Shown piece by piece: positions 1,757-62,208 of a DNA stretch of 64,000 nucleotides. The DNA lies in assembly GCF_014200045.1 (NCBI RefSeq), contig NZ_JACHOV010000003.1, positions 80,001 to 144,000 on the forward strand, written 5' to 3'. The DNA comes from Rhizorhapis suberifaciens. GTDB taxonomy: Bacteria; Pseudomonadota; Alphaproteobacteria; Sphingomonadales; Sphingomonadaceae. Both the position numbers and the translations under genes were made by a program. How positions within the stretch are numbered: position 1 is the first letter of the stretch; every line of letters starts with the position of its first letter. The notes under the pieces were generated by a model. That model did no database searches, was not told where the DNA came from, and saw nothing but the letters and a program-made list of their open reading frames with translations.

Positions 1757-3322
1757 TTACTGCCTGCGCATCAGCGTGTAATCCAGTCGCGCGGAACCAT
1801 TGGCAGGGACCATGGCTTTCCAGAGAAGATCGCCCTCTTTTCGCGCCAATTTTGTACTGGTTCTGGAGTAGGTAAAACCATCCGATTGCTGGAGACGAAG
1901 CTCCACCGCGGCCGGACGGTTATTGGCGTTGGTAATGGTCAATCGATATGAGGATTTCGCCCCCTTTCCGCATTGGACGCATTCCAGCCGAAATTGCAGC
2001 TGCGGGCTCGCACCGACCTTAACCTCAACTTCTTCTCCGACGGCATGGTCGCGAAGCTTGTCTTCGCCCACAAGCATTTCCTGGCCGTTCACACTTTCGA
2101 ACAGGGCAAGGCCACCCGATGGCAGCGGTGCGCCCAGGCCGTCCTTTTCCCGGTTGCGCATGCGGATCAGCATTTGGAGCGGTGCCGCGTCGGTCACATT
2201 TTCCGGCCAGAGCGTCGCCCCATAAACATGTGTGAAGGGCACGCCGCGCTTTTCCAGCATCGCCATTTGCTTCTGACCATTGGCGTTGACATCGACACGC
2301 ATAGGCACGCGATAAAGCTTCAGATCGCCCAAATCTTCCTGCACAGCCTTTCGACTTTGCGCCGTGACAACGACGTCGGCGGCAGCGGCTTCCATCCGCG
2401 CCATCATCGGCGCTGGGGGTGGCGCGGGCGACCCGGCCATCATTTGCTCATACATCTGTATGTCTGCGGTGCTGGTCGTATCCATCGGCCAGCAGCGCAG
2501 ATTGAGGACCGGCGAGGGTTCCGGCGCTACCAGCTCTGCAAAACTGCTCTTTCGATTAACCCGGCCAGCGACGGCTAGAAGCTGCGAATCGGCAAAGCTG
2601 ATGTCGTTGCTATTGGCCACGGTCAGCCAGCCAAGCAGGTCCAACGTCCTCCCCTCAGCATTTACGCGCGCCACATAATTGGCGGACCAGTCGAAACCTG
2701 TGGCAAGATAGGTCAGCGTCACATCGGCGGTCGTCGCCTGTTCGCTGCGGGTGGTCACGGAAAGCGTGGGCTTGGCGGAAAGTCCCTCCGGCATGGTGCC
2801 ATGGACCAGAGTTTCGGGAAGGCCCGAACATCTCAGTCCCTCAACGCCCTCGGCGGTCTGGAGCACCACAGCATTGTCCGCTCCAGAACGAATCACGGCC
2901 TCCGCCTCAATGATTTTCCCCGTCGCGATATTGGTGCGGCGGATATGGACGCGGTTCCCCAGCGCGCCATCGAGCAAGGACGCCGGAGTCAAAAGCTTCG
3001 CGTCGCGATTTTTCTGTATCACTCCGCCGGGCAGACCAGTCACCACGGCGCTCACCGCGATCATGCCGTTAGCCACCCCCTCAAAGCGAATCAGCGATTC
3101 GCCCTGTGGCACCGCGATGCGGCGATGCTCTGTAATAAGCGCGAAACCGTTGAGCCAACTAAGATCGATGCCGCCGTCACCCCGATCCGGATCGCGGTAA
3201 ATCGTGACGGATGTGGAACCCGGCGCAGGCGAGGTGATGGTCGTCTGCGAAAAGGCCGGGGCGCCGGTGAGGAGGAGAACCAAACCCAGCGCCCAAACTT
3301 TCCCGTCATTGCGGACAGGCAT
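1757..3322 (-). CDS. DUF4139 domain secreted protein, second of a tandem pair
   Basis: A 521-residue protein with a cleavable signal peptide (hydrophobic residues 9-25, ending near GAPAFS-Q), then an N-terminal beta-rich region and a C-terminal DUF4139-type domain. The motif ATGFDWSANYVARV is shared with the upstream neighbour (TPGLGWSADYVALY), as is the closing LDYTL-type beta strand. Its ATG follows the stop of that neighbour by one base, so the pair is co-transcribed and probably translationally coupled. DUF4139 proteins are periplasmic or surface-exposed and uncharacterised in most bacteria. It differs from its neighbour by a long insert with a Pro/Met-rich patch (PAPPPAPMM) near residue 300. 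Confidence 0.82.
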   Translation of the reverse strand: MPVRNDGKVWALGLVLLLTGAPAFSQTTITSPAPGSTSVTIYRDPDRGDGGIDLSWLNGFALITEHRRIAVPQGESLIRFEGVANGMIAVSAVVTGLPGGVIQKNRDAKLLTPASLLDGALGNRVHIRRTNIATGKIIEAEAVIRSGADNAVVLQTAEGVEGLRCSGLPETLVHGTMPEGLSAKPTLSVTTRSEQATTADVTLTYLATGFDWSANYVARVNAEGRTLDLLGWLTVANSNDISFADSQLLAVAGRVNRKSSFAELVAPEPSPVLNLRCWPMDTTSTADIQMYEQMMAGSPAPPPAPMMARMEAAAADVVVTAQSRKAVQEDLGDLKLYRVPMRVDVNANGQKQMAMLEKRGVPFTHVYGATLWPENVTDAAPLQMLIRMRNREKDGLGAPLPSGGLALFESVNGQEMLVGEDKLRDHAVGEEVEVKVGASPQLQFRLECVQCGKGAKSSYRLTITNANNRPAAVELRLQQSDGFTYSRTSTKLARKEGDLLWKAMVPANGSARLDYTLMRRQ

Positions 3323-6896: not shown

Positions 6897-6984
6897 TTTC
6901 CATTCCCGCGAAAGCGGGAATCCAGCTGCCTTCTTTATGCGTCATATAAGAAAAATTGGATCCCCGCATTCGCCGGGACGACGA
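6897..6984. repeat. Inverted palindromic repeat doublet between prfA and prmC
   Basis: Two arms in opposite orientation, 6897-6926 and 6955-6984, each carrying a hairpin of the type CCCGCGAAaGCGGG. Both are diverged copies of the 30-base end sequence seen perfectly at 61339-61368. About 28 bases separate the arms. The doublet lies between the prfA stop and the prmC start inside an operon, so it would fold in the messenger RNA. Confidence 0.85.
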
Positions 6985-51177: not shown

Positions 51178-54100
51178 AAGAGGGTACTGGTTTCGCCGAA
51201 CTCCTTGCCGCGACCAATTTCTCCTTCCTGCGCGGCGCATCGCATCCATCCGACATGGTCGGCCGGGCATTGGAACTCGGCCTTGCCGGAATAGGCATTG
51301 CCGATCGCAACAGCGTGGCTGGGGTGGTCCGCGCTCATGTGGCCTTGCGCGATGCCGGGGAGAAGGACTTCAAGCTGGCGGTAGGCGCGCGGTTGGTCTT
51401 TGCCGATGAAACCCCGGACATCGTCGCCTATCCCGAAACGCGCTTTGGCTGGGGACGGCTCACCCGGTTGCTGACGGTCGGCAATCGACGGGCGGAAAAG
51501 GGAGATTGCATCCTCTATCTCCCGGATTTGCTGGAGCATTGCCAGGATCTGCTACTTATAGTTCTTCCTTCGTCATTCCCGCGAAGGCGGGAATCCATTT
51601 CCCAGCCTAATGGCCAGCGGATGGTTCAGGAGATAGATCCCCGCCTTCGCGGCGATGACAAAAGCGGAGGCGATGAGAAAGTTTTGACTTCCATCATCTC
51701 CCAACTCACCCAAACCCGTCCCAATGCGGTCTGGATCGGGGCCAGCATGCACCGCATTGGTCCAGACCGCCGCCGCCTCGCCGGGCTCATGCGCCTCAGC
51801 GCAGCGACTGGCGCGCCGCTACTTGCCACCAATGACGCTCTCTATGCGACGCCGGGGCAACGGCAGTTGCACGACATCATCACCTGTATTCGCGAAGGCG
51901 TGACCATAGCCGGGGCGGGCCGCCGCCTTGCCGTCAATGCGGAGCGGTATCTCAAAACACCACAGGAAATGACCCGGCTGTTCCGCGACTGTCCGGAGGC
52001 CGTCAGTGAGAGCGTGCGTCTTCTTTCACGCATCAACTTCTCGCTCGATCAGTTGCGCTATGAATATCCGCATGAGCCAGTGCCCCAGGGTTGGACGCCG
52101 CAGGATTGGCTTGAACATCTGGTGATGGTGGAGGCCCGCAAGCGGCATCCCGATGGCTTGCCTGAAAAGCTGCGCGACATATTGGACGAGGAGTTCACCC
52201 TCATCCGCAAACGCAATTATGCCTATTACTTCCTGACCGTCCACGACATCGTGCAGTTCGCGCGCACGCAGCACCCGCCCATCCTTTGCCAGGGCCGGGG
52301 TTCGGCCGCCAATTCCACCGTTTGTTATCTGCTCGGCATCACTTCGATTGATCCGGTTGAGAACAACCTGCTCTTCTCCCGCTTTCTTTCTGAAAAGCGC
52401 GGCGAGCCACCCGACATTGATGTCGATTTCGAACATGAGCGGCGTGAAGAAGTGATGCAATATGTCTATCGTCGCTATGGCCGCCATCGCGCGGGGATCG
52501 CCGCCACGGTCATCCACTATCGGTCGCGCAGTACCGTGCGCGAAGTGGGTAAGGCGCTTGGTCTTAGCGATGATGTGACCGCCCGCCTGGCGGGTACGGC
52601 CTGGGGCAGCTATTCCAGCGACATGCCGGAACAGCGCTTCATAGAAGCGGGCTTCGACCCAGCCAATCCGGAAATGGTGCGGTTGCATCGGCTGGTGGGG
52701 GAATTGCTGGAATTCCCTCGCCATCTTTCGCAACATGTCGGCGGTTTCGTCCTGACCGAGGATCGGCTGGACGAAACTGTTCCCATCCACAATGCGGCAA
52801 TGAAGGATCGCACCTTCATCGAATGGGACAAGGACGATATCGACGCCCTTGGCCTGATGAAGGTCGATGTGCTCGCGCTCGGGATGCTGACTTGCATCCG
52901 CAAGAGCTTCGAATTGATTGATAAGTTTGGCCTGCTGAATAAAACCATCGACGACGTTAAAGGAGAGCCGGGAAAACTTACCCTCGCCACCGTCCCTGCG
53001 GAAGATTCCGACGTCTACGACATGCTTTGCAAAGGCGACAGCATCGGCGTTTTTCAGGTGGAAAGCAGGGCGCAGATCAACATGCTGCCGCGCCTCAAGC
53101 CTCGTGAATTCTACGATCTTGTCATTCAGGTCGCGATTGTCCGCCCCGGCCCCATAGAAGGCGACATGGTGCATCCCTATCTGCGGCGGCGCAGCGGCAA
53201 GGAGGCTGTTGTCTTTCCATCGCCATCGCCGCCTCATGACGCCAATGAGTTGAAGGAGGTTCTGGGCCGCACCAAAGGCGTGCCGCTATTCCAGGAACAG
53301 GCGATGAAGCTTGCCATCACCGCCGCCGAATTCACCCCCGATGAAGCCAATGGCCTGCGCCGGGCGATGGCGACCTTCCGCAATCTGGGCAAGATGCATG
53401 TCTACAAGGACAAGCTGATCGGTGGCATGACGGCACGTGGTTACGAACGCGACTTCGCCGAGCGCTGCTTCAAGCAGATAGAGGGCTTTGGCAGCTATGG
53501 CTTTCCTGAAAGCCATGCGCAGTCCTTTGCCAAGCTGGTCTATGTTTCCGCCTGGATCAAATGCCATCATCCGGCGGTCTTCGCCTGCGCTCTATTGAAT
53601 TCCCAGCCCATGGGCTTCTACGCTCCGGCCCAGATCGTCCGTGACGCACGCGAACATGGCGTGGAGGTGCTCGCGGCCGACATCAATGCGAGCGATTGGG
53701 ATAATGGATTAGAAACAGAGGACAAGAATGCCAGCAAGCCCGCCCTTCGCCTCGGCTTCCGCCAAATAGACGGCTTTCGCGAGGAATGGGCAAAGGCATT
53801 GGTTACCGCGCGTCAGGATGGACCGTTCGACACTATGGAAACACTCGCCCGTCGAGCCGCACTTCCGGGAAGGGCGTTGCGCTTGCTTGCTGATGCGGAC
53901 GCCTGCCGCTCCATCGGCCTCGACCGCCGCCAGGCGCTATGGGAGGTAAGGCGCATGCCTAATGGCGAATTGCCCCTCTTCGCTGCTGCGCAGGCGCGCG
54001 AATTGGCGCAGGAGCCCGGCGCCAATCTTCCTGCCATGGCCGCTGCCGAACATGTGGTGACGGATTATCAGACCACGCGCCTGTCCTTGAAGGGCCATCC

Positions 54101-56846: not shown

Positions 56847-56937
56847 TCGGCATTCCCGCGAAGGCGGGAATCCATCTCTGGGTATTGAACCGAGGAGATG
56901 GACAAGAAATGGATACCCGCCTTCGCGGTAAATAACG
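56847..56937. repeat. Palindromic repeat doublet upstream of prfC
   Basis: Left arm 56847-56876 matches the 30-base consensus with one difference near its outer end. Right arm 56908-56937 is inverted and more diverged. The pair lies between the aldose epimerase stop and the prfC start, close to the ribosome site. Confidence 0.88.
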
Positions 56938-57895: not shown

Positions 57896-60259
57896 TTAAC
57901 CCCTTAACGTCCCGCCCAGCTTGTCGGCGGCCTTGACGACTGCCGCGCTGATTGCGTTCAACTCCTCCTCGGTAAAGCTTTTCTCGCCCGGCTGCAGCGT
58001 CACTTCTATTGCGAGCGACTTCTGTCCTTCGGGCACGCCCGGTCCTGCAAAGACGTCGAAGAGGCGAGCATCGACGATCGCCTTTTTGTCGGCATTGCGG
58101 GCGGCGCGGACAAGCTGTTCGGCTTCCAGCGCCTGGGGCACCAGAAAGGCGAAGTCGCGCTTTACCGCCTGCAATGCGGGCGGCGAATAAGGCGCGCGCA
58201 TGAAGCCGCTCTTGCGCTTGACCGGTATGGCATCAAGGAAAATTTCAGCAGCGACAATGCTGCCCGACAGGTCGAACTGCTTGATCATGTTCGGGTGCAG
58301 CACGCCATATTCGGCCAGCACATTCTTGGGTCCCAGGCGCAATGTGCCCGACTGGCCGGGGTGATAGGCGGCGCTTGCCTCACCCATCATCTGCAAATTT
58401 TCAACGGGCGCCCCTGCCGCGGCGAGCAGTGCGACCACTTCGGCCTTGATGTCATAGGCATCGAACAGGCTTGCCTTGCCGCTATTCCAGTTGCGCGGCG
58501 TCTTGTCGCCCGCAAGCACAATGCCCACCGTCGCGCGTTCGCCATCTGAAAAGTAGCGCCGCCCAACTTCGTACAGCCGGACCGAAGATGCGCCCCGGTC
58601 GGCATTGCGCTGCGTCGCCGATAGCAGCCCAGGCAGCAGCGAAGGCCGCATGACCTTCAGTTCTTCCGATATGGGGTTGGCGAGCGTCCAGTCGCCGCCG
58701 CCGACAGAGGCGGCCTCCCTTTGCGAGATGAAAGACCAGTTCACCGCTTCGTTCAGGCCGCGTGCGGCGGCTGCGCGGCGAACGCGGCGTTCCGTCATCT
58801 GCTGCGGCGTCGCCGTGGGTTTCGCGACCCCGGCTGCGCGGGGAAGGGGTATCGACGGAACCTTGTCGATGCCATGGATACGAACGATTTCTTCCACGAT
58901 ATCCGCACTGCCCTCAACGTCACGGCGCCATGAGGGAATGGAGATGGTCCAGCTTTCACCAACGCCGAAACCCAATTTCTCGAGAATCGCCCGCTGCATG
59001 TCGCGGCTGACCTCGACCCCGGCGAGCGATAAAACCGCTGCCGGATCGAAGGCGATACTCCGCGTGTCCAGCGGCGGTTCGCCGGCATAGGTCGCCTCGC
59101 TTGGGCTCCCGCCGCAGAGTTCCAGCACCATCTGCGTCGCGATGGACAGGCCATCGTCCAGGAATGCAGGGTCCACTCCCCGTTCGAACCGGCTGCGCGC
59201 GTCGGAGGCGAGCGCCAGCTTCTGGCCTGTGCGGGCAATGGCTTCGGGAGTGAAATAGGCGCATTCGATAAGGACGTCGGTCGTGCCTTCCTGCGCGCCG
59301 GAATGCTCGCCACCCATGATCCCGCCAATGTCGTGCACGGTTTCGCTGTCGGCAATGACGGTCATCCCGTCGTCCAGCGTGTAGGTCTTGCCGTTGAGCG
59401 CCACCACTTCTTCGCCGGCCTTCGCCTTGCGCGCCACGAGGCCGCCCTTCAGCGTCGCCATATCGTAGACGTGCAGCGGCCGGCCAAGGTCGATCATGAT
59501 AAAGTTGGTGATGTCTACCAACGCGGAAATCGGCTTCTGTCCGATTGCTTTCAGTCGTTTCTGCAGCCATTCGGGCGAGGGGCCGTTCTTCACGCCCCGA
59601 ACAGAACGCGCGAAGAAGGCGGGACAGCTTTGGATATCGTCCGTGCGCACATCCGGCCCCAAAGCTTCGCCCTTGATCGTGGGCACCTTCAATGGCTTCA
59701 GCGCGCCGAGGCCCGCCGCCGCCAGGTCGCGCGCAATGCCGCGCACGCCCATGCAATCCTGTCTGTTGGGCGTGATGGCCACTTCAATGACAGGGTCGTT
59801 GAGCCCCGCCCATTGGGCATAAACCGCACCTACCGGAGCGTCGGCGGGAAGCTCGATAATGCCGTCATGGTCCTCGCCCAACTCCAGTTCGCGTGTGGAA
59901 CACATCATGCCGCTGGATTCAACGCCTCTGATCGCCGCAACTTTCAGGGTGATGCCGCTGCCGGGCACATAAGCGCCTGGCATGCCGAATACGCCAACCA
60001 GGCCCTCGCGCGCATTGGGCGCACCGCAGACGACTTGGAGGGGGCCTTCCCCGGCATCTACCGAAAGCACCTGCAGCTTGTCCGCCTGCGGGTGCGGCGC
60101 GGCCGAAAGCACCTTGGCAATGCGAAAGGGCTCCAGCTTCTCCGCCGGATTTTCAACGCCCTCAACCTCCAGGCCGATGGCATTAAGCTTTTCCAATATC
60201 TGTTCCAGCGTCGCGCCGGTTTCGAGATGCTCTTTCAGCCAGGACAGGGTGAACTTCAT
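57896..60259 (-). CDS. pheT: Phenylalanyl-tRNA synthetase beta subunit
   Basis: A 787-residue subunit. The N-terminal EMAP/OB tRNA-binding domain is at about residues 40-150, and B3/B4 editing domain (KLALASDARSRFERGVDP) follows. B5 and the catalytic-like core come next. The C-terminal FDX-ACB domain ends AAVVKAADKLGGTLRG. It pairs with PheS to charge tRNA-Phe and edits Tyr-tRNA-Phe. ATG at 60259 overlaps the pheS stop by 4 bases. Length is near the family norm of about 795. Confidence 0.96.
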   Translation of the reverse strand: MKFTLSWLKEHLETGATLEQILEKLNAIGLEVEGVENPAEKLEPFRIAKVLSAAPHPQADKLQVLSVDAGEGPLQVVCGAPNAREGLVGVFGMPGAYVPGSGITLKVAAIRGVESSGMMCSTRELELGEDHDGIIELPADAPVGAVYAQWAGLNDPVIEVAITPNRQDCMGVRGIARDLAAAGLGALKPLKVPTIKGEALGPDVRTDDIQSCPAFFARSVRGVKNGPSPEWLQKRLKAIGQKPISALVDITNFIMIDLGRPLHVYDMATLKGGLVARKAKAGEEVVALNGKTYTLDDGMTVIADSETVHDIGGIMGGEHSGAQEGTTDVLIECAYFTPEAIARTGQKLALASDARSRFERGVDPAFLDDGLSIATQMVLELCGGSPSEATYAGEPPLDTRSIAFDPAAVLSLAGVEVSRDMQRAILEKLGFGVGESWTISIPSWRRDVEGSADIVEEIVRIHGIDKVPSIPLPRAAGVAKPTATPQQMTERRVRRAAAARGLNEAVNWSFISQREAASVGGGDWTLANPISEELKVMRPSLLPGLLSATQRNADRGASSVRLYEVGRRYFSDGERATVGIVLAGDKTPRNWNSGKASLFDAYDIKAEVVALLAAAGAPVENLQMMGEASAAYHPGQSGTLRLGPKNVLAEYGVLHPNMIKQFDLSGSIVAAEIFLDAIPVKRKSGFMRAPYSPPALQAVKRDFAFLVPQALEAEQLVRAARNADKKAIVDARLFDVFAGPGVPEGQKSLAIEVTLQPGEKSFTEEELNAISAAVVKAADKLGGTLRG

Positions 60260-61332
60260 GCGCCCACTCCTCCCGAAAGCGTGGGTACATCAAGAGACGA
60301 GAAGCCATAATGCCGCAGCCAGCGCAGATCGCCGTCGAAGAAGGCCCGCAAGTCATTCATCCCATATTTCAGCATCGCCAGCCGGTCGACGCCGGTGCCG
60401 AAGGCGAAACCCTGCCACTCCGCCGGATCAAGGCCGCAGGCGCGAATGACATTGGGGTGGACCATGCCGGACCCCAGCACCTCCATCCAACCTTCCGATC
60501 CGCCGATGACGCGCTGACCCTTTTCCATGGAGTAGCCGACATCGACCTCCACCGACGGTTCGGTGAAGGGAAAATAGCTGGGGCGCAGGCGCAGCACGAT
60601 GTCTTCGCGCTCGAAAAACGCTTTCAGGAATGTCTCCAAGGTCCATTTCAGATGACCAAGATTAATGCCTCGGTCGATCACCAGCCCCTCAATCTGATGG
60701 AACATCGGCGTATGCGTGGCGTCACTGTCCGATCGATAGACCCGACCGGGCGCAATGATACGGATTGGCGGCTCTTCCGATGTCATTGTCCGGATCTGAA
60801 CCGGCGAGGTATGCGTGCGCAGCAGCATCTTGCGGCCGTCGCGCTCATCAGGGAAGTAGAACGTGTCGTGCATCGCCCGCGCCGGATGGGTTTCGGGAAT
60901 ATTGAGCGCACTGAAATTATGCCAGTCGTCTTCGATCTCTGGTCCCGTTGCGACCGAAAAACCAAGGTCCGCAAAGATTTCGGCCAATTCGTCCATCACC
61001 TGGCTCACCGGATGCACCGAACCCTGCGGATCGGGAAGAGCCGGGAGGGTCATGTCCAGCTTTTCGGAAGTCAGCCGCTCCTGAAGGATTGCTTGTTCGA
61101 ACATGGCTCGCTGGGCTTCGATTTTGCCGCTCAGCGCTCCTCTCCAGCCCTGATATTTCGGGGCTAGCGCGAGGCGCTCTTCGACCGGCAGGCGCCCCAG
61201 GCTTTTCAAGAGATTGGTTATAGTGCCGTTTTTGCCTAACGCAGTGATTCTGGCGGCTTCCAATTCCTCCAGATTCTTGGCGCTCTCAATCTGCGCCATA
61301 AGGCTTTTTCCGACCTCGTCGATATTCACCAC
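60256..61332 (-). CDS. pheS: Phenylalanyl-tRNA synthetase alpha subunit
   Basis: A 358-residue catalytic subunit. A coiled-coil N-terminus binds tRNA-Phe. Motif 1 is near HPVSQVMDELAEIF, motif 2 includes GRVYRSDSDATHTPMFHQIEGL, and motif 3 is GFAFGTGVDRLAMLKYGM. The start is GTG at 61332, followed by a second GTG, with GAGGA just upstream. One inverted arm of the GIY-YIG element begins 7 bases before the start region, so the element lies in the leader. Normally rplT lies directly upstream, as it does beyond the insert. Confidence 0.96.
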   Translation of the reverse strand: MVNIDEVGKSLMAQIESAKNLEELEAARITALGKNGTITNLLKSLGRLPVEERLALAPKYQGWRGALSGKIEAQRAMFEQAILQERLTSEKLDMTLPALPDPQGSVHPVSQVMDELAEIFADLGFSVATGPEIEDDWHNFSALNIPETHPARAMHDTFYFPDERDGRKMLLRTHTSPVQIRTMTSEEPPIRIIAPGRVYRSDSDATHTPMFHQIEGLVIDRGINLGHLKWTLETFLKAFFEREDIVLRLRPSYFPFTEPSVEVDVGYSMEKGQRVIGGSEGWMEVLGSGMVHPNVIRACGLDPAEWQGFAFGTGVDRLAMLKYGMNDLRAFFDGDLRWLRHYGFSSLDVPTLSGGVGA

Positions 61333-61338
61333 TTTTCC

Positions 61339-61766
61339 TCGTCATTCCCGCGAAGGCGGGAATCCATCTCCCGGCCTTGCCCATTTGGTGCCATGCTTAG
61401 TCGACGCGCCGCGAAGGCAGCGCTTCAAATCCGAACGTAACAGCTAAATCGTTCCAGTCCGGATTGTCCCGTTCTATCAGATCGATTTTCCATTGCCGTT
61501 TCCATTTCTTGATCTGCTTTTCCCGGCCGATAGCGTTTTCCATTGTCCCGTGCTGTTCGAAGTACACCAGCCGCTTGACGCCGTAGTCCGTCGTGAAGCC
61601 GGGAATCAAGCCCAAACGATGTTCGTGGACACGCTTAAGGAGGTTCGAGGTTACTCCGGTGTAAAGTGTTCCATTCCTGTGGCTGGCCATGATGTAGGCC
61701 GTCGGTTGAAAGTCGGCGCTCATAGGTTGGCTCGGGGATGGATTCCCGCCTTCGCGGGAATGACGA
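61339..61766 (-). mobile_element. Putative GIY-YIG element with 30-bp inverted ends
   Basis: Perfect 30-base inverted repeats at 61339-61368 and 61737-61766 bound a 428-bp unit that contains only the GIY-YIG gene. Each end holds its own hairpin (CCCGCGAAGGCGGG). The unit lies between rplT and pheS, genes usually adjacent in this lineage. Gene-free relatives with the same ends are at 6897, 51570 and 56847. No target-site duplication was identified by eye. Mobility is inferred. Confidence 0.75.
61397..61723 (-). CDS. GIY-YIG endonuclease-domain protein
   Basis: A 108-residue single-domain nuclease of the YhbQ/COG2827 type. The motif appears as AYIMASHRNGTLYTGVT: Y10 stands for the GIY Tyr and Y21 for the YIG Tyr (YTG). 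R31 in LLKRVHEH and E68 in GREKQIKKW fit the catalytic Arg and Glu, and N87 or N91 in DNPDWNDL the last position. The ATG at 61723 begins the family-like N-terminus; translation upstream would read the repeat. It is enclosed by 30-bp inverted repeats. Whether it cuts DNA or moves the repeats is unknown. Confidence 0.88.
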   Translation of the reverse strand: MSADFQPTAYIMASHRNGTLYTGVTSNLLKRVHEHRLGLIPGFTTDYGVKRLVYFEQHGTMENAIGREKQIKKWKRQWKIDLIERDNPDWNDLAVTFGFEALPSRRVD

Positions 61767-61789
61767 AATTGAGGGATGCATGAACCAAG

Positions 61790-61821
61790 AAAAAAGGCGC
61801 CGGAACCATCGCCCCGGCACC
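61790..61821 (-). terminator. Rho-independent terminator after rplT
   Basis: On the minus strand GGTGCCGG (61821-61814) pairs with CCGGCGCC (61803-61796), one G-U pair, around a 10-base loop, then six T residues. It lies 25 bases downstream of the rplT stop and should reduce read-through into the GIY-YIG gene and pheS. Confidence 0.85.
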
Positions 61822-61845
61822 CTTGTCTCTTCAGCAATCGCCGGT

Positions 61846-62208
61846 TCAAGCCTGCGGCAGGGCCGCCTGTGCCTGTGCAACAATGGCCTTGAAGGCATCG
61901 CCTTCATGCATCGCGATGTCGGCCAGGACCTTCCGGTCAAGGTCGACGCCCGCGAGCTTCAGGCCATGCATGAACTGACCATAGGTGAGGCCTTCCATGC
62001 GAACCGCGGCGTTGATGCGCTGGATCCACAGGGCGCGGAAGCTGCGCTTCTTAACCTTGCGGTCGCGATAGGCGTACTGGCCGGCCTTTTCGACGGCCTG
62101 ACGGGCGATGCGGATCGTATTCTTGCGACGGCCATAATAGCCCTTCGCCTGATCCAAAATCCGCTTGTGCTTGGCGCGGGTGGTTACACCCCTTTTTACG
62201 CGTGCCAT
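61846..62208 (-). CDS. rplT: 50S ribosomal protein L20
   Basis: A 120-residue basic protein that binds 23S rRNA early in assembly. The N-terminal [28 protein letters not shown] is the rRNA-binding tail. The globular part [39 protein letters not shown] is the family hallmark. It follows rpmI by 18 bases. The C-terminus ends ALPQA. It may also repress its own operon as in E. coli, but no leader structure was confirmed here. Confidence 0.98.

Follow-up and report, generated by a model that had tools for sequence, protein, structure and literature searches.

A GIY-YIG nuclease gene boxed by inverted REPs

The window, by which we mean the whole 64,000-nucleotide stretch analysed (G000:C3:80001-144000), belongs to a genome of 3.36 Mb and harbors a 428-bp unit composed of one small GIY-YIG nuclease gene and two inverted palindromic arms. 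This unit lies between two ORFs which, from their sequences, we take to be rplT and pheS. The features are as follows, the last three being related repeats elsewhere in the window:

61339..61766: whole unit, arms plus GIY-YIG gene, 428 bp (from the sequence and a repeat search)
61339..61371, + strand: left arm, a REP of CGTC-1 type with its tag facing out, plus a 7-nt extension, CATCTCC
61734..61766, - strand: right arm, a REP of CGTC-1 type with its tag facing out
61397..61723, - strand: GIY-YIG nuclease gene, 108 aa, ATG start (ORF list, PF01541, AlphaFold2, Foldseek)
61846..62208, - strand: flanking gene, presumably rplT (ORF; query for the junctions of relatives)
60256..61332, - strand: flanking gene, presumably pheS (ORF; tblastn match in the junctions of relatives)
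61793..61824, - strand: terminator-like hairpin after rplT, just beyond the unit (1 found, 0.8 expected in shuffles)
6899..6982: gene-less REP pair in the unit's orientation, left tag decayed
51572..51659: gene-less REP pair, tags outward as in the unit
56849..56935: gene-less REP pair in the unit's orientation

The repeat search delimited inverted arms at 61339-61376 and 61729-61766 (38 nt, 92% identity), of which the outermost 30 nt are identical, with 32 identities over the outer 33. Each arm reads TCGTC, then a hairpin with a GAAG loop, then CCATCTCC or CCATCCCC, and folds as DNA with 8 base pairs and a loop of 4 nt (free energy of -8.9 kcal/mol; z-scores of -3.84 and -3.24), in agreement with the earlier note, which had described identical inverted 30-base hairpin ends around a single 108-residue GIY-YIG gene; the ORF and the Pfam match bear out the gene as well. 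With up to three mismatches allowed, the 31-nt end occurs four times in the window, the two arms of the unit included, where 0 are expected. In the genome, a 24-nt core has 34 copies at up to three mismatches and a reversed-pattern control has none, and these two counts against empty controls exclude a chance origin of the arms.

The GIY-YIG gene is on the same strand as rplT and pheS, and the right arm ends 10 bp upstream of its ATG. We found no promoter-like site in 61300-61900; with an arm this close to the start codon, the gene may therefore need read-through past the rplT terminator, a hairpin for which a similar sequence is present in the corresponding junction of a genome of the same genus (G075).

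The arms are CGTC REPs with gene-less counterparts

Two REP superfamilies were defined in 2013, and the available part of that survey describes CGTC-1 and CGTC-2 repeats by a CGTC tag, an 8-bp stem starting with AT, a 4- or 5-nt loop and a CCA tail, occurring in pairs of inverted orientation, with the dRS3 repeats of Neisseria assigned to CGTC-1 (Di Nocera, De Gregorio and Rocco 2013, PMC3733652). The arms of the unit show the superfamily's CGTC end, stem, loop, CCA-type tail and many copies, and fit CGTC-1 in detail (tag CGTC, 8-bp stem beginning with AT, loop of 4, tail CCA). Inward of the tail, the repeats of this genome continue into a consensus CATCTCC (17-27 of 28 distinct tails per position), an extension that the gene-less pairs and the arms of the unit have in common. 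The terminal inverted repeats are likewise common to the unit and its gene-less derivatives, a feature by which IS elements and MITEs are recognised. Outward, a C precedes GTC in 28 of 31 REPs of this genome and in 102 of 116 arm flanks from the 58 boxed units described below (L034-L123), and the outer flanks of these units are pyrimidine-rich beyond the tag; the C and the pyrimidine-rich flank may belong to the end itself or reflect a target preference.

The pairs at 51572-51659 and 56849-56935 closely match the end sequence of the unit. We considered and dropped the idea that single REPs are strand-biased along the replichores: a longer REP list mixes strands, and the impression had come from list order. 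A second GIY-YIG gene of this genome (L003, G000:C8:175060) is frameshifted and adjoins a different hairpin, GTGCTCCTGCGAAAGCAGGAGCC, giving it the look of an old unit, of a different type.

The protein is a bare GIY-YIG domain

Pfam GIY-YIG (PF01541) matches the window protein with 50.7 bits (cut-off 22.6) and is its sole Pfam match at E up to 10, so that no known transposase class is matched. Residues Y10, Y21, R31 and E68, which the earlier note had singled out, are where it placed them and are invariant among 29 aligned sequences including the window's own, an alignment in which their numbers are higher by two; the catalytic residues are invariant in a 36-sequence alignment as well. The AlphaFold2 model of residues 7-108 (102 residues, mean pLDDT 95) predicts the GIY-YIG domain alone, with helices at its C-terminus, and the protein has the marks of the superfamily, namely the GIY and YIG tyrosines, the central Arg, the C-terminal Glu and the fold. 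No NUMOD-like tail was found, either by Pfam up to E 10 or in the single-domain model.

The closest sequence-profile match in the PDB is to UPF0213/Slx1-like proteins (1zg2, 1ywl; E 5.4e-5), and the closest solved fold found by Foldseek is UPF0213 BH0048 (E about 1e-3, none lower; TM 0.52), followed by Slx1 and UvrC. Slx1 works on branched DNA, which, together with the Slx1-like predicted fold, makes recognition of a hairpin or cruciform by the GIY-YIG protein plausible. The window protein resembles these stand-alone, single-domain proteins; its group differs from them by an Asn near the C-terminus that is invariant in the 29-sequence alignment, by being boxed by REPs and by often having several members per genome. 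An Asn is described as absent from the Slx1-type group in the available part of the GIY-YIG phylogenomic study PMC1564403, and may be at another position than the invariant one here.

NCBIfam returned nothing for the window protein, and 12 of 36 aligned relatives weakly match its group I intron endonuclease model (best E 2.4e-4). Two further readings were set aside. One is a defence system: at E 0.01, PADLOC gave nothing for the window protein, and among 36 relatives 11 have a weak match to one PDC-S14 model (best E 0.001). The other is carriage by phages: a search of the phage collection was negative at E 1e-6, and the best PHROGs E is 0.37.

Boxing of the gene is systematic in the family

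When the 149 genomes of the sphingomonad family were searched with the protein, 105 gave matches, as many as 12 in a single genome; part of these matches may represent other GIY-YIG proteins. Boxing was scored on 93 matches from 30 loci of this search and 60 hand-chosen regions of up to 20 kb, a sample that leans to close relatives as the regions were picked down the match list. REPs were called by a detector blind to the gene (GTC, 8-bp stem, loop of 4 or 5, C-rich tail), which found 177 REPs in the 60 regions (1.17 Mb) and 14 in the reversed sequence.

By this detector, 58 of the 93 homologues are boxed on both sides within 250 bp with tags outward, and 72 have a REP on at least one side. 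In the 60 long regions, boxed matches amount to 33/62, against 0/25,603 random intervals, 5/858 other ORFs and 2/282 short ORFs. The reverse tag orientation on both sides was seen 11 times, ten of these genes being boxed outward as well, and 23 of 25 close gene-less REP pairs are in the orientation of the unit. Some genes failing the tag test have other palindromes as arms, for instance of the ATTGCGAG/GCAATC type, and a generic inverted-arm score was passed by 71 of 92 genes and by 4 of 3,000 random intervals. One or the other test was passed by 76/93 genes; the remaining 17 count against the protein being a mobiliser of the repeat, the reading developed below. The median length of the boxed units is 401 bp, with 44 of 57 within 350-430 bp (one short match of the 58 omitted). 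The earlier note had staked its reading on the GIY-YIG genes of this clade having such ends, and most sampled homologues do have them: the pairing of GIY-YIG gene and REPs is systematic.

The two arms match one another, and their hairpin class follows the protein. The same stem is present in both arms of 32 of 56 boxed pairs (2 of 58, with unequal loops, omitted), against a mean of 12.9 and a maximum of 22 in 2,000 shuffles within loop class. We built a protein tree of 174 genes (4 of 178, shorter than 240 bp, omitted), which is poorly resolved with 102 columns, and labelled 102 of its rows by loop class, leaving out 70 that have no class and 2 that have both. The class, 4 or 5 nt, changes 8 times on the tree, against 34 with shuffled labels (minimum 26), and within the family 44/52 proteins share the class of their closest relative from another genus (shuffled mean 26, maximum 40). 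Genus labels barely cluster on the same tree (44 changes; shuffled mean 46, minimum 44), and 6 of 9 genomes with at least two labelled genes have both classes. Hairpin loop class follows the GIY-YIG protein tree. A derivation of the arms from REPs of their own genome was tried and not retained, the signal being weak (best identity 0.73 versus 0.71 in size-matched draws; own-genome identity higher for 36 of 52 arms from 24 genomes), a point that counts against the mobiliser reading.

REP number follows the gene

REPs counted by two patterns have a median of 12 in the 93 genomes with a strong homologue, 9 in the 12 with a weak one and 0 in the 44 without, of which 28 have none and 16 have some. 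Within genera, we used only the 13 pairs in which one species has a strong homologue and the other none; the gene-bearing species is richer in REPs 12:0 with one tie, and, once two arms are deducted for every match, in 11 of 13 pairs, with one against and one tie. Three observations count against the mobiliser reading: eight genomes without a homologue, confirmed by profile, have at least 10 REPs (two of them are under 90% complete); the two patterns detect no REP in five genomes that have a strong homologue; and 48/84 REP-poor genomes have a GIY-YIG match. Among the 65 genomes with at least 10 REPs, 57 have a GIY-YIG match and 14 a Y1_Tnp match (PF01797); the latter is found in 10 of the 84 others and has no match in the genome of the window.

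Multicopy units, filled and empty sites

Copies of the unit within a genome were compared in nine genomes and are near-identical in two: G111, in which three units on one contig are 83-94% identical, and G135, a fragmented assembly in which four of the five units compared are 86-94% identical. In the other seven, the copies are less than 70% identical over the unit or cannot be aligned, which counts against mobilisation. The similarity of near-identical copies comprises the unit and some 25-45 bp on the upstream side of the gene. For the pairs L122/L269 and L262/L264, ~40-100 bp are common on the other side too, so that these may be duplications of a larger piece.

In 30 genomes including the window's, rplT and pheS are in line at 24 of 28 loci. 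Three of these junctions contain a GIY-YIG gene (the window included), one contains only a REP pair, three have long inserts of other kinds, and 17 have a gap of 67-186 bp with no CGTC-1 match. The gap is 87 bp, without the unit, in G075, of the same genus, and 513 bp in the window, which minus the 428-bp unit leaves 85. Empty junctions, which the earlier note had made a touchstone of mobility, do therefore exist, including in the sole other same-genus genome of that search (G075). In G012 (L239) a gene-less REP pair is found where the window has the gene. A comparable situation is observed in Azospirillum lipoferum 4B, with a REP pair, the gene and another REP pair within the 617-bp gap between sufB and sufC. 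All four Azospirillum records compared are empty there: the gap is 91 bp in A. ramasamyi (flanks 98% identical), 87 bp in A. oryzae and 129 bp in B510, and A. brasilense has no insert. As the empty state is the commoner, gain is the likely direction. No target-site duplication was obvious by eye at the window unit or in Azospirillum.

Many sphingomonads have a GIY-YIG gene at the rplT-pheS junction: genes beside pheS make up 21 of the 174 tree genes and require 6 changes on the tree, against 20 when shuffled, and eight Sphingomonas copies between rplT and pheS have no matching arms within 170 bp, which again counts against a mobiliser. Part of the occupancy of this junction is inheritance and looks resident rather than freshly mobile, the arm-less Sphingomonas copies behaving as if settled. 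On the tree, the three closest relatives of the window's gene sit at other loci.

Two candidate empty sites were rejected. In Rhizobium CIAT894, an IS4 gene lies beside the unit and there is no clean empty site. In Sinorhizobium, both aligned records have the gene, and they differ only in the number of palindromic units upstream. This palindromic unit upstream of the GIY-YIG gene varies in copy number between the megaplasmids L281 and L289, and parts of the stretch are found at 764 places in 134 plasmid records (megablast).

Relatives beyond the sphingomonads

We scanned species genomes with the 29-row alignment and analysed the best 80 loci of at least 587 relatives. Matching inverted arms were found at 55 of the 85 genes of these loci, against 1 of 3,200 random intervals. 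When tagged pairs in either orientation are added, 30/44 genes pass in loci titled Sphingomonadales and 30/41 elsewhere; the random-interval control applies to the narrower rule alone, the label was set by hand from titles, and some of the other loci are MAGs with broad names. Those passing outside Sphingomonadales among the best 80 loci include Rhodanobacter, Pseudoxanthomonas, Methylomonas and Kaistia, as well as a Desulfobacterales MAG, a Planctomycetes chromosome and a Phycisphaerae MAG; three Anaerolineae genes fail the wider rule. At 8 of the 85 genes, the tags point inward only, which counts against the mobiliser reading. In the phylum, 217 of 398 genomes gave a profile match, many of these matches being weak.

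By eye, an unannotated GIY-YIG relative lies between CGTC-1 (dRS3-like) hairpins in a Neisseria gonorrhoeae record (L282, ~3001-3267), which is classed as a plasmid although its size is that of a chromosome. On a Planktothrix plasmid (L286), a GIY-YIG gene between an MmeI-type restriction gene and DISARM drmA has a different repeat, TGTCATTCTGAG, downstream.

A candidate mobiliser for CGTC REPs

We propose that the GIY-YIG enzyme mobilises REP-bounded DNA in cis and in trans, as the counterpart for CGTC REPs of the RAYT transposases, and consider this explanation probable with moderate confidence. The element would be a minimal selfish one, with two inverted CGTC REPs as its ends and one GIY-YIG endonuclease gene between them. 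The enzyme would recognise the tagged hairpin, as a single strand or an extruded cruciform, and cut each end at its C/GTC tag or next to it; the cut would start excision or copying of the DNA between two such ends. Its cargo would be either its own gene or gene-less REP pairs with the same ends, served in trans. The steps that we infer are that the enzyme binds the hairpin, cleaves at the tag and mobilises DNA in trans, and that the ends are then rejoined. The mobile-element reading of the earlier note is strengthened by the wide linkage of gene and repeat, the co-variation of arms and protein, the multicopy units and the filled and empty sites; the 'transposase-free mobile element' that it proposed stays conjectural, as does movement of the repeat by the protein. 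Whether GIY-YIG nucleases are the dedicated mobilisers of the whole CGTC superfamily, with dRS3 of Neisseria and further types of palindrome among their substrates, and in several phyla, we hold to be an evenly balanced question.

The closest parallel is the REPtron, in which GTAG REPs flank a RAYT gene (TnpA-REP, a Y1 HUH enzyme): there as here, a small nuclease gene is flanked by REPs, gene-less dimers are present elsewhere in the genome and the enzyme lineage is matched to the REP type. The unit differs by its GIY-YIG rather than HUH/Y1 fold, and by CGTC rather than GTAG repeats. With the CGTC-1/CGTC-2 REPs, the arms share tag, stem, loop, tail and inverted pairing. In the available part of the 2013 survey, GTAG REPs are associated with RAYTs, no associated enzyme is reported for CGTC REPs, which are said to 'apparently lack a dedicated transposase', and no CGTC-flanked tyrosine transposase was found (PMC3733652); here, a GIY-YIG gene lies between the repeats and is a candidate for the missing mover that the survey left open. 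The pairing of enzyme lineage and hairpin type makes this candidate testable by cleavage, and if the proposal holds for the whole superfamily, the only enzyme of a class of transposable elements would be a GIY-YIG nuclease acting on hairpin ends.

The alternative that retains most weight, which we nevertheless judge unlikely, is a homing parasite: a free-standing GIY-YIG gene would cut gene-less REP pairs and be copied into them by recombination, the REPs themselves spreading by other means. It explains the same anatomy as mobilisation does, the domain is the classic homing one (PMC1564403), and the weak matches of 12 of 36 relatives to an intron-endonuclease model, not seen for the window protein, point the same way. 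The gene-less REP pair at the G012 rplT-pheS junction would be its target, and 16 of 44 genomes without the gene do have REPs. The window protein has the catalytic domain, and possibly the mode of spread, in common with the free-standing homing endonucleases of the I-TevI group, from which it differs in that no NUMOD-like tail was found and that the phage collection contains nothing matching it at E 1e-6. Against homing stands the bare domain of the protein: according to the available part of PMC1564403, GIY-YIG homing enzymes typically, although not obligatorily, carry NUMODs, and none were found in Alphaproteobacteria. Moreover, REPs are mostly absent where the gene is absent (zero in 28/44 genomes; 12:0 between congeners), whereas a pure parasite predicts otherwise, and a search for Y1_Tnp, the only one made for another REP mover, found none in this genome. 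In Legionella pneumophila, the intergenic flanks of GIY-YIG genes are 11 mutation hotspots and the genes have been read as homing endonucleases (PMC12308824). These multicopy genes with recombination-prone-looking flanks are similar to the unit and lend homing some credit; they differ in that the available part of that paper, whose authors give no experimental confirmation of the variants, names no REP.

It is far less probable that the protein has a housekeeping role, as a UPF0213/Slx1-like structure-specific repair nuclease that trims REP hairpins and is kept nearby by regulation or selection, the REPs spreading otherwise. The closest solved folds (UPF0213, Slx1, UvrC) and the arm-less, apparently inherited rplT-pheS copies suit such a caretaker, but it needs no matching boundary repeats, multicopy units or empty sites. 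Movement of the repeats by RAYT/IS200-type transposases, as proposed for GTAG REPs (PMC3733652), is hardly credible: the absence of a Y1_Tnp match rules it out in this genome, and such matches are found in just 14/65 REP-rich and 10/84 other genomes of the family. The last alternative, an equally slight one that we strongly disfavour, is that the gene is a passenger, small and dispensable enough to tolerate REPs inserting at gene ends, in keeping with their preference for intergenic space near 3' ends (PMC3733652), but other ORFs at the same loci are rarely boxed (5/858; short ones 2/282), and the arms match one another and the protein clade.

Among the matches listed by our literature search (titles, starts of abstracts and term counts, subscription papers and preprints lying outside its scope), no publication links GIY-YIG proteins to REPs. 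The available parts of a 2025 REP survey (PMC12306157) and of PMC1564403 mention no transposase or nuclease and no palindromes, respectively, and a MITE review (PMC10969869) does not mention REPIN, RAYT, REP sequence, nuclease or CGTC.
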